From assembly GCA_026394215.1 (NCBI GenBank), contig JAPKYR010000216.1:1-32042 (forward strand): DNA of 32,042 bases, read 5' to 3'. Position 1 is the first letter of the stretch. The number at the start of each line of letters is the position of its first letter. Positions 6,509 through 27,950 of the stretch are shown piece by piece. Below the pieces are notes generated by a model. The model was given only the letters and a program-made list of their open reading frames with translations, ran no database searches and was not told the origin of the DNA. Made by a program: the position numbers and the translations under genes. The DNA comes from a bacterium. GTDB taxonomy: Bacteria > JAJVIF01 > JAPKYR01.

Positions 6509-6645
6509 GGAAATTGGGGGAAATTGGGGACAGGTAACTCATTTCGAAAATCCGGTATATTCGAATAAGATTGGGCACAACAAAGCGCATTTGGCTGGTC
6601 AATTGAAAAGAGTTACCTGTCCCCAATTTCCTGTCCCCAATTTCC
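6509..6645. repeat. REPIN-like nested inverted repeat
   Basis: A perfect 22-bp inverted repeat (6519-6540 against 6610-6631) encloses a 69-nt centre. It is nested in a second 11-bp pair, GGAAATTGGGG (6509-6519) and CCCCAATTTCC (6635-6645). Both arms contain GGGGACAG/CTGTCCCC, as does the shorter element at 3122-3170. Two REPs in inverted orientation around a short spacer is the definition of a REPIN, a non-autonomous element mobilised by RAYT (IS200/IS605-like) transposases. The element ends 4 nt short of the usp stop codon, so it forms the 3' end of that transcript. No encoded transposase lies in the window. Confidence 0.75.
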
Positions 6646-8843: not shown

Positions 8844-8920
8844 ATGCAAATCCCGATGCAAATCCCGGTAGCAGCTATCCCGGAGCGTTAGCGGAGGGTA
8901 GCTGCTATCCGGGATTTGCA
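8844..8920. repeat. Long imperfect hairpin with GNNA core plus 12-bp direct repeat
   Basis: ATGCAAATCCCG is repeated directly (8844-8855, 8856-8867). The second copy begins a long hairpin, arms 8857-8880 and 8897-8920, with one mismatch and one bulge. On the plus strand the apex contains GGAGC-GTTA-GCGGA: a GNNA tetraloop closed by two G-C pairs and a purine-only internal loop (G.A, G.G, A.G). The same core, GAGCG-T-n-AGCGA, makes up every unit of the array at 26672-27051. The surrounding 324-nt gap between the divergent Wzz-like and mrp genes contains no convincing small gene. Confidence 0.65.
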
Positions 8921-25105: not shown

Positions 25106-25139
25106 AACAGCCATGTCGCGGCTTGAAAGGACTTTGACT

Positions 25140-26648
25140 ATGAAATTCAACGTTAAACTCAATTCCGGAAATCTTTTACAGGCAAACTATCCTGTGCTTG
25201 TCGTTCCAGCTTTCGAGGATCCCGCTCTCCCGCCGGATTTAAGGGAACTCGACAAATTATGGAAAGGGGTGCTCGCAAGCGCTCTTAAGAGCGAGGTCCT
25301 CACAGCCGACGGGGAACTATATATCGTGCCGAACCCGATCGGAAAGGGCATCCACAGAATCGCGTTTGTCGGGATGGGCAAAAGCGATCAGTGCGACCTT
25401 GAAAAATTGAGGAATATCGCCGGCACTGCCGCGAATTCGCTTCGAAAACGCGATGTCGGCAGGATATGTTTTCTGGTCGAACCATTTATCACGTTCGATT
25501 ATAAAATCGAGAATGTCGGGCAGACCCTTCTGGAAGGCGCTTTGCTGGGATCGTACAGCTTCGACCAGTTTAAAGCCGAAAAAGATACCCACGTTCTCTC
25601 CAACGTTGAGCTTCATCTGCCGAAACATATCAATATTAAGGACCTGATGCCGATGCTTGATGAGACACTCGCTCTCACCACTTCGACTCTCATGACCCGC
25701 GACTGGTGCAATACGCCGGGGAATCTCGCAACGCCGACTCATCTCGCCCGTCTCGCGAAAGATATCGCGAAGGAAGCGGGGCTTTCGGTGAAAGTCCTCG
25801 ACGAAAAGGACTGCGAGAGACTGGGGATGGGCTCATTCCTTGCCGTTTCGCGGGGTTCCGACGAACCTCCGAAATTTATCGTCATCGACTATAAACCGAA
25901 ACGACATTCAAAAACCATATGTTTCGTAGGTAAAGCGATCACATTCGATTCCGGCGGAATTTCCCTCAAGCCCGGCAAGGACATGCACTTAATGAAAGCC
26001 GACAAGGGCGGCGGGCTTGCGGTTCTCGCGACCATGCGCACTGTGGGTATGTTGCAGCCGGATAATGTCCGGATAATCGGTATCGTCCCGGCTTGCGAAA
26101 ATCTTCCCGACGGCAGGGCGACAAAACCCGGCGATATCGTGACCACCATGGGCGGAAAAAGTATCGAGGTGCTCAATACCGACGCCGAAGGAAGGCTCAT
26201 TCTCGCGGACGGTCTCGAATACGGATGTTCCGAATACCGCCCGGACGCGATTATCGATGTCGCGACACTCACCGGCTCATGCGTTATCGCGTTGGGTCAG
26301 GATATGTCGGGCTACTGGACCGACGATAAAAATATCGCTGAAGCCATAGAAAAAGCGGCGGAAATCTCCGGCGAAAGAACCTGGCGCATGCCGCTTCATA
26401 AACCGTATGCCGAACAGCTTAAAAGCGATTGCGCGGATACCGCCAATATCGGCGGACCATGGGGCGGATCGATCACGGCAGCGCTGTTTCTGAAGCAATT
26501 CGTCGGCGACACACCGTGGATGCATCTCGATATCGCCGGACCGTTCTGGGCGGAGAAATCATCCGGATATCTTACCAAAGGCGCGACCGGCTACGGCCCG
26601 AGGCTTCTGTACAGATTTATCACCCAATGGGCCGCCACAGTAAAATAA
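25140..26648 (+). CDS. pepA: Leucyl aminopeptidase (M17)
   Basis: The protein has 502 residues from ATG 25140, which has AAAGGA 9 nt upstream. An earlier in-frame ATG at 25113 has no ribosome binding site and would add an unusual nine-residue extension. The C-terminal catalytic domain has both hallmark motifs: GKAITFDSGGISLKPGKDM (Lys265 and Asp270 as metal ligands) and the M17 signature NTDAEGRL (346-353). Between them lies MKADKGGG. It is a dinuclear metal exopeptidase, normally hexameric and cytoplasmic, that releases N-terminal amino acids; some members also bind DNA as transcription factors. The N-terminal domain is weakly conserved. No U-tract terminator follows: the hairpin array begins 24 nt after the stop. 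Confidence 0.95.
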   Translation: MKFNVKLNSGNLLQANYPVLVVPAFEDPALPPDLRELDKLWKGVLASALKSEVLTADGELYIVPNPIGKGIHRIAFVGMGKSDQCDLEKLRNIAGTAANSLRKRDVGRICFLVEPFITFDYKIENVGQTLLEGALLGSYSFDQFKAEKDTHVLSNVELHLPKHINIKDLMPMLDETLALTTSTLMTRDWCNTPGNLATPTHLARLAKDIAKEAGLSVKVLDEKDCERLGMGSFLAVSRGSDEPPKFIVIDYKPKRHSKTICFVGKAITFDSGGISLKPGKDMHLMKADKGGGLAVLATMRTVGMLQPDNVRIIGIVPACENLPDGRATKPGDIVTTMGGKSIEVLNTDAEGRLILADGLEYGCSEYRPDAIIDVATLTGSCVIALGQDMSGYWTDDKNIAEAIEKAAEISGERTWRMPLHKPYAEQLKSDCADTANIGGPWGGSITAALFLKQFVGDTPWMHLDIAGPFWAEKSSGYLTKGATGYGPRLLYRFITQWAATVK

Positions 26649-26671: not shown

Positions 26672-27051
26672 CAGAGGCACGAGCGTCAGCGAGTGCTATT
26701 GGTGCTTTAAAGCACGAGCGTCAGCGAGTGCTATTGATTCTTTCAAGCACGAGCGTCAGCGAGTGCTATTGGTGCTTTCAAGCACGAGCGTCAGCGAGTG
26801 CAATTGGTTCTTTCAAGCACGAGCGTAAGCGAGTGCTATTGGTTCTTTCAGGCACGAGCGTCAGCGAGTGCAATTGGTTCTTTCAAGCACGAGCGTCAGC
26901 GAGTGCAATTGGTTCTACCAAGCACGAGCGTCAGCGAGTGCTATTGGTTCTTTCAGGCACGAGCGTCAGTGAGTGCTATTGGTTCTTTCAAGCACAAGCG
27001 TAAGCGAGTGCAATTGGTTCTTTCAAGCACTCACTGACGTTCGTGCCTCTG
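26672..27051 (+). repeat. Tandem GA-hairpin array with terminal inverted copy
   Basis: Ten direct 35-bp units start at 26677 and recur every 35 bp to 26992. An eleventh, inverted unit lies at 27027-27046. Each unit is a 20-nt hairpin, GCACGAGCGTCAGCGAGTGC, plus a 15-nt linker such as TATTGGTTCTTTCAA. As RNA on the plus strand the hairpin has a GCAC/GUGC stem, a tandem G.A/A.G step, two G-C pairs and a GUCA or GUAA loop. The array is bounded by CAGAG (26672-26676) and CTCTG (27047-27051), so its ends form an imperfect 25-bp terminal inverted repeat. Unit 9 changes G-C to G-U and the inverted unit changes the same pair to A-U. It lies between the convergent pepA and lipoprotein genes; the 519-nt gap holds no convincing gene. 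Confidence 0.93.
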
Positions 27052-27088: not shown

Positions 27089-27122
27089 AAAAAACCCCCC
27101 GGGATCTTTTTCCGGGGGGTTT
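27089..27122 (-). terminator. Terminator of the PKD lipoprotein gene
   Basis: AAACCCCCCGG (27092-27102) pairs with CCGGGGGGTTT (27112-27122). Read on the minus strand it is followed by TTTTTT (27089-27094). It lies 46 nt beyond the lipoprotein stop. On the plus strand only a short T-run follows, so it works best for the minus-strand gene but may also stop read-through from the array. Confidence 0.88.
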
Positions 27123-27167: not shown

Positions 27168-27950
27168 CTATGGGCTTTCATGTGGGTAACAGCATATATG
27201 AACCGAGTCGGTTGCGGAACTTCCTTCCGCATCCATGACCAGCACAGATGGTTCATAGTCTCCAGGGTCTTTATAAAAATGGGAGTTCACAAGCCCCGCA
27301 CCCGGATCGGAATTGTCGCCCCAGTACCAGACCGAATCATACGGCGGCGTCCCGCCTGTCACTATCGCCTTGAACGCAATCGACATAGGCGCAATACCGC
27401 TCTGCCTGCTCACTATCATTTCAACCTCTATCGGCACCGGATCGAACGCGCCGTATATTCCCGGTTCATCAATCGACATGACCGCGTGCATGCCATCATT
27501 TTGTACCGGTGCGGTTCCGGCAGCTTCCCATGCGTACGATGCGTTGATCTTGAAACCGCGTCCCGCGAATCCAGGCGACTTGTATTCAGCAAGCTGGAAG
27601 CTTACAACAACAGGAGCCTGGAACACCATATCATCTCCCGTCATCTCGAAAGTCCCCAGCCTTATATAGATCGGCCCGGCAGGAGTCGTGGGAACATCCC
27701 CGGGGAAACCCCTGACCGAAAACGAAAATGTCGCGTCATCAGGGATAGCTCCAGCCGGGAACTCCAGATTGATCCCTATATCGCTGAATCCAAATGAACC
27801 ACCCGATGGATCCACGGTGCCGCTTCGCCACTCGGTTGGGTCGATTGTCGGAGAAATCGGATTTTGATAAATTGAACTGCTGTTGCACCCGACTAGAAGT
27901 ATGCTCAACAGCGTTGTTAATATTATTGGACTGGTCCATGGTACACGCAT
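27168..27950 (-). CDS. Lipoprotein with ZU5-like and PKD-like domains
   Basis: The protein has 260 residues. A lipoprotein signal (1-22) ends in the lipobox L-V-G-C (Cys22). Residues ~43-130 follow a ZU5-like pattern: SGTVDPSGGSFGFSDIGINLEFPAGAIPDDATFSFSV. Residues ~185-255 follow a PKD pattern: PMSIAFKAIVTGGTPPYDSVWYWGDNSDP...HFYKDPGDYEPSVLVMDAEGSSATDSV, with the W-x-x-G-D-N core. Two adjacent Cys residues near the C-terminus (HICCYPHESP) are unusual. It is probably an adhesive or scaffolding envelope lipoprotein. GGAGG at 27959-27963 is a strong ribosome binding site. Transcription ends at the terminator at 27089-27122. Confidence 0.85.
   Translation of the reverse strand: MRVPWTSPIILTTLLSILLVGCNSSSIYQNPISPTIDPTEWRSGTVDPSGGSFGFSDIGINLEFPAGAIPDDATFSFSVRGFPGDVPTTPAGPIYIRLGTFEMTGDDMVFQAPVVVSFQLAEYKSPGFAGRGFKINASYAWEAAGTAPVQNDGMHAVMSIDEPGIYGAFDPVPIEVEMIVSRQSGIAPMSIAFKAIVTGGTPPYDSVWYWGDNSDPGAGLVNSHFYKDPGDYEPSVLVMDAEGSSATDSVHICCYPHESP

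Follow-up and report, generated by a model that had tools for sequence, protein, structure and literature searches.

A tandem hairpin array downstream of pepA as a probable expansion of one REPIN of a class-3 TnpA_Y1 system

Downstream of the pepA gene in a 32,042-nucleotide stretch of DNA (hereafter the window; contig C81 of a 3.45-Mb genome in 321 contigs), positions 26672-27051 are occupied by ten direct 35-bp units followed by one inverted unit, each capable of folding into a short hairpin. A preliminary description of the sequence had left two readings side by side, namely a 3' mRNA element composed of protein-binding sites and a mobile repeat that had expanded, and the locus thus raises the question of which of them accounts for the array.

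Architecture of the array and its surroundings

The organization of the locus was as follows.

25113-26648, plus strand: pepA (M17 leucyl aminopeptidase), upstream of the array; PF00883, E 6e-119
26672-26696, plus strand: left end, a complete REP, foot CAGAG (26672-26676) and hairpin of unit 1 (26677-26696); tagged match with 0 mismatches
26697-26711, plus strand: 15-bp linker after unit 1, TATTGGTGCTTTAAA
26712-27011, plus strand: nine inner footless hairpin units (2-10) at an exact 35-bp pitch with 15-bp linkers, starting at 26712, 26747, 26782, 26817, 26852, 26887, 26922, 26957, and 26992
27012-27026, plus strand: last linker, AATTGGTTCTTTCAA, taken as the spacer of the short REPIN from which the array would descend (units 10/11)
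27027-27051, minus strand: right end, a complete REP, inverted hairpin (27027-27046) and CTCTG (27047-27051; CAGAG on the minus strand)
27092-27122, no strand given: G+C-rich 13-bp hairpin, terminator-like; -25.1 kcal/mol, z -4.2
27168-27950, minus strand: convergent downstream gene; weak PKD_4 match, below cut-off

The division into ten direct units and one inverted unit was borne out both by TRF (26677-27030, period 35, 10.1 copies, 92% matches) and by a pattern search, which returned ten plus-strand hairpins at a 35-bp pitch together with the inverted one; with up to 3 mismatches allowed, these 11 hairpins compared with 0.02 expected from 100 dinucleotide-preserving shuffles of the window. 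The two ends were likewise recovered as the imperfect 25-bp terminal inverted repeats originally described, bounded by CAGAG and CTCTG and differing at 2 of 25 positions. The proposed fold, consisting of GCAC/GUGC, a GA/GA step, GC/GC, and a GNNA loop, was predicted for all ten direct copies, and the GUAA variant of the loop was indeed present (as GTAA) in units 5 and 10. The claim that the substitutions respect this fold held for one stem pair, which was G-T in unit 9 and A-T in the inverted unit, but not for unit 10, where a G → A change fell inside the GA step.

Units 4 and 6 were identical and the remaining units differed by 1-5 bases (0-5 differences in a whole-unit comparison including linkers), as expected of slippage or unequal exchange. 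The CAGAG foot was confined to the outer two copies, and the nine inner ones had linker ends such as TTCAA, TTCAG, and TTAAA in its place. An Rfam scan of the window gave no match at the gathering score, and a coding origin was rejected, since the 35-bp period is not divisible by 3 and the array fits no gene model. The genome assembly is fragmented, and the exact unit count may therefore reflect the way the repeats were assembled. Elsewhere in the window, a perfect short tandem (CCTGTCCCCAATTT x 2.1) was noticed at 6616-6645.

The first position of the array is 24 bp past the pepA stop. The earlier statement that no U-tract terminator follows pepA proved correct for the plus strand inside the array, but the terminator-like hairpin at 27092-27122, which a simple terminator scan had overlooked, sits 41 bp farther on; as read on the minus strand, it runs into TTTTTT and thus resembles a terminator for the convergent gene. 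With pepA upstream and this gene downstream, the array therefore lies between convergent genes, a usual location for REPs (Di Nocera et al., 2013; PMC3733652).

Dispersed copies and structure of the hairpin

Further copies of the hairpin in the same genome, for which a search had been proposed in the preliminary description, were abundant and included variants. The hairpin itself was found 41 times on the plus and 25 times on the minus strand (up to 2 mismatches), and the foot plus hairpin CNGARSCRCGMNCGTNAGNRAGYGS 78 and 73 times, about 151 in total (up to 1 mismatch), the reversed control giving 0/0 in both searches. The copies were mainly extragenic, 15 of 71 falling within ORFs of at least 120 aa as compared with 61.6% of random positions under crude ORF calling. 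Most of the fetched copies formed inverted pairs with the foot CAGA(G/A) pointing out, which is the layout of a REPIN; among own-genome loci selected by a hairpin match rather than at random, and counted by hand, opposed neighbours within 130 bp stood in the order plus then minus, feet outward, at 31 loci including the window, and in the reverse order at 2.

The spacing of the opposed pairs was either 29-36 bp (a short form, of subtype A as defined below) or, mostly, 81-92 bp. Besides the window, nine two-arm places with the short 29-36 bp pitch were found in the genome; at one of them (C53), the REPIN had a pitch of 35 and the spacer TATTGACCAAATCAA, the linkers of the window being of the TATTGGTTCTTTCAA type, and on C186 three hairpins followed one another at 31 and 32 bp, the middle one footless. 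Direct arrays were also present on C96 (four copies at 46 bp), C292 (three at 52-53 bp), and C195 (four at 51 bp, then an opposed copy 98 bp away). The copies of those three arrays were footed, whereas the window array is footless inside and keeps exactly the pitch of the short REPINs. In an empty-site comparison with a genome of the same genus (G001), the contigs ended on both sides of about 24.2-28.9 kb of the window.

Two stem subtypes were distinguished, namely subtype A, that of the window (CAGAG with GCACGA..GAGTGC), and subtype B (CAGAA with CCACGA..GAGTGG), and a further variant with a GC/AA instead of a GA/GA internal loop occurred in this genome and in other phyla. The 5 nt before the hairpin were CAGAG, CAGAA, CGGAG, or similar. 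Around subtype B, the conserved region began at about GTATCAGAA and ended some 16 nt 3' of the hairpin; of 71 tagged copies, 44 had a CA[AC]T motif starting 11-13 nt beyond the 3' side of the hairpin. As known TnpA_REP enzymes cleave at CT or CA outside the hairpin (PMC8266576), CA[AC]T may be a candidate cleavage site.

Covariation, the other check that had been suggested, was detected at three stem pairs. Over 69 distinct hairpins, pairs 1-20, 3-18, and 7-14 were paired in 63, 65, and 64 cases, as compared with means of 39.7, 46.9, and 30.0 and maxima of 51, 55, and 43 in shuffles that ignore relatedness, the search pattern leaving the tested pairs free and many loci having been fetched with patterns free or half-free there. 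The pair types included C-G/G-C, A-T/G-C, and G-C/C-G/A-T, and the alternative pairs recurred in different phyla. Positions 5-16 were G.A in 147 and positions 6-15 A.G in 127 of 154 hairpins; the GA step and the GTNA loop were thus more constant than the three covarying pairs, a constancy partly built in by a search pattern that specified G5/A16 and the loop, with one mismatch allowed.

The predicted RNA hairpin was more stable on the plus strand (-8.5 kcal/mol) than on the minus strand (-5.5 kcal/mol), and ViennaRNA gave -3.6 and -2.8 kcal/mol for the two DNA strands, by itself a weak difference. The near-constant GA step and GTNA loop make strand specificity of the array hairpin plausible. 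For TnpA_REP enzymes, binding and processing are restricted to the correct REP strand, via mid-stem mismatches or loop bases (PMC8266576), and both the GA step and the covariation are in line with such an enzyme recognising a single DNA strand in folded form. The strand-specific structure first proposed would accordingly survive as a feature for recognition of single-stranded DNA, but not as an RNA element of pepA.

Another palindromic repeat, 60 bp long and different from the array hairpin (CAAATCCCGGTAGCAGCTAT CCCGGAGCGTTAGCGGAGGG TAGCTGCTATCCGGGATTTG), was noticed at 8859-8918 of the window; its left part had 24 copies in the genome, 9 of them identical, with a control of 0 (up to 3 mismatches). 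Since a related hairpin lies close to a Y1_Tnp gene on C78, this repeat may be the cognate one of that gene.

Candidate enzymes and their co-occurrence with the hairpin

Eight Y1_Tnp (PF01797) genes were found in the genome. Two of them, on C21 and C97, encode IS200-like HUH/Y1 paralogues with 65% identity. The C21 gene lies between three plus-strand and two minus-strand hairpins of subtype A (GCAC..GTGC), the subtype of the window, and the C97 gene between inverted hairpins of subtype B (CCAC..GTGG); no array-type hairpins were found at the loci of the six other genes. Both proteins keep HxH, W[TA], and Y----Q, and the invariants of the enzyme profile (alignment A2) include H97, H99, W136 followed by T or A, Y157, and Q162. 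The NCBIfam REP-transposase model matched below its cut-off (31-34 versus 80 bits), as is expected because the class is divergent. A PDB sequence search with the enzyme profile gave only a marginal match, to the IS200-like transposase 2f4f (E 0.036), and a structure model was therefore used. The AlphaFold2 model, which is of the homologue L154 and was built from L154 homologues rather than from the C21 or C97 proteins, with a pLDDT of only 71, matched ISDra2 TnpA, IS608 TnpA, and 4er8 (TnpA_REP bound to a REP). To judge from these sequences, the C21 and C97 enzymes likely recognise and mobilise the array hairpins in trans.

Several of the remaining Y1_Tnp loci bore repeats of other kinds. Those on C206, C211, and C305 (L080, L083, and L085) lie inside long terminal inverted repeats, of 27 nt (perfect), 82 nt (80%), and 51 nt (88%), respectively, resembling the "TIRtrons" of the literature. 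On C305, the gene is adjoined by direct repeats of about 200 bp (L085:2714-3960; four to six copies, 60-86% alike), perhaps a gene for a repeat-domain protein. On C291, tandem 23-bp repeats TGTTGTAGGACACGCTTTCCAGT directly precede the gene (L082:1163-1300), with inverted copies on the other sides, and probably represent yet another repeat family with its own enzyme.

Homologues of the C21 and C97 enzymes were found in named genomes of Desulfococcaceae, Bryobacterales, other Acidobacteria, and Planctomyces, and at five such loci (L154-L158) the CCGCGACCGTNAGGGAGYGG hairpin stood on both sides of the Y1 gene, with feet mostly of the form C[AC]GAG (CAGAG, CCGAG) and CNGTA in Planctomyces. Two of these loci, both from Acidobacteria (L156 and L157), have class-3 genes flanked by heterodimeric REPINs with one GA/GA and one GC/AA arm; given that the GC/AA arm also occurs in the genome of the window, the two arm types may be old.

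Among 289 sampled genomes, a strong enzyme match (E below 1e-25) was obtained in three, the genome of the window (G000), G001, and G183, which contained 151, 37, and 172 hairpins, respectively, as compared with at most 3 in every other genome. Since the first two share a genus, this co-occurrence amounts to two to three independent cases. Genomes with weaker Y1 matches (G138 and G275) had no hairpin copies, and no flanking hairpin was found at the other gene of G183 (L162).

Origin of the array and comparison with known systems

The notion of a mobile repeat that expanded was thus strongly supported by the roughly 151 copies, their inverted pairing, the cognate Y1 genes, and the association of hairpin and enzyme across phyla, and the array very probably arose by expansion of a single REPIN belonging to a class-3 TnpA_Y1 (RAYT-like) system. 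Each unit would be a REP. Its imperfect palindrome spans 20 nt, with tandem GA/GA as internal loop and GTNA as loop, and would fold into a hairpin whenever the strand becomes single, as at a replication fork; at the outer ends of the array, the CnGA(G/A) foot precedes it. The C21 and C97 transposases would act on such hairpins, with the foot, the internal loop, and the loop bases distinguishing the correct strand from its complement. The footless interior, the exact short-REPIN pitch, and the parallels on C53 and C186 point to a short two-arm REPIN with a 35-bp hairpin pitch as the founding copy, whose left arm and spacer, without the foot, would have been tandemly duplicated nine more times to give ten copies, most simply via replication slippage between hairpins. 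Mobilisation, binding of single-stranded DNA, and the slippage route are what we infer from these patterns, and an influence on pepA mRNA, if there is any, would be incidental.

An array of REPIN origin might instead have been kept or expanded by selection, as a decoy titrating the transposase, as a site for a host DNA-binding protein, or as a barrier between the convergent genes. An accumulation of nine additional footless copies in a single location is unusual for this genome, and the position between convergent genes is a common one for REPs (PMC3733652), but the arrays on C96, C195, and C292 keep their feet and have other periods and therefore fit repeated neutral expansion, so that we regard selection as unlikely. 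Considerably less probable is an RNA element in the pepA 3'-UTR, in which ten strand-specific hairpins would bind a protein or protect or terminate the mRNA. The array does begin just past the pepA stop with 10 of 11 hairpins in sense, its RNA fold is the more stable on that strand, and for REPs in other bacteria a role in stabilising or terminating mRNA has been proposed (PMC3733652); however, the hairpin family is about equally distributed over both strands, mostly as inverted pairs, has other copies away from pepA, is absent from 22 other pepA-bearing genomes, and co-occurs with the Y1 enzyme across genomes, and the mRNA element was accordingly abandoned as the primary nature of the array. 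An ordinary minisatellite or CRISPR-like array unrelated to REPs, to which the regular 35-bp period might point, is hardly conceivable for a unit dispersed genome-wide as tagged inverted pairs with linked Y1 genes, and a CRISPR array was rejected on the nearly identical linkers, which are themselves repeats and thus no unique spacers.

The expanded REPIN is a further example of a known repeat type rather than a new RNA element, tandem REP arrays being already on record (PMC3116915 and PMC3733652). It provides an explicit, covariation-supported consensus for the class 3 hairpin, common to several phyla, and two enzyme-hairpin subtype pairs in one genome together with an expanded footless array. 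By what means a little-studied HUH branch discriminates between the two DNA strands, and whether class 3 links IS200-type transposition with REP mobilisation, thereby become testable. A bolder version, in which class-3 Y1 enzymes would recognise the folded strand by the tandem sheared G-A loop and GTNA, and footless arms, bound and uncleavable, would be amplified into long arrays serving as sinks or regulators of the enzyme, is speculative and in our judgement rather improbable.

With the IS200/IS605 elements IS608 and ISDra2, the present system shares the HUH/Y1 fold and hairpin ends with a 5' guide-like tetranucleotide, but only two divergent gene copies face about 150 hairpins here, and these are arranged in inverted, outward-tagged pairs. 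The E. coli TnpA_REP/REP system (4er8; Corneloup et al., 2021, PMC8266576) is similar in its HUH fold, predicted here, in the mid-stem mismatches of the REP, and in recognising only the correct folded strand, a specificity that is plausible here; its cleavage at CT/CA outside the hairpin has a possible counterpart in CA[AC]T 3' of the hairpin, whereas identity in the structural match is about 9%. GTAG REPs and REPINs with class 2 RAYTs, as outlined by Bertels and Rainey (2011; PMC3116915) and Di Nocera et al. (2013; PMC3733652), are alike in being short extragenic palindromes with a 5' tag, in tag-out inverted pairs and tandem clusters, served by a dedicated Y1 enzyme flanked by its own REPs. 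Membership in that group was rejected on the CnGA foot, no GT[AG]G being among the 12 commonest feet, and on Y----Q instead of Y---NP.

The closest agreement was with the class 3 REPtrons, a rare class that Quentin et al. (2018; PMC6006769) define from about two dozen proteins with HUH, W[TA], and Y----Q motifs, from Acidobacteria, Planctomycetes, and Proteobacteria, and for which they call for further experiments. CnGA-foot hairpins flank those genes, as they do the C21 and C97 genes and L154-L157 here, the enzyme invariants given above match the class 3 motifs, and the high copy number is shared, up to about 600 hairpins being given there for Solibacter usitatus. That description calls the class 3 hairpins only atypical, with a CnGA foot; compared with it, the present system has an explicit stem consensus, in which the internal loop is GA/GA or GC/AA and the loop sequence is GTNA. 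It further differs in having two paralogous enzymes with a stem subtype apiece, a host lineage with few sampled relatives, and an array of ten arms, nine of them footless.
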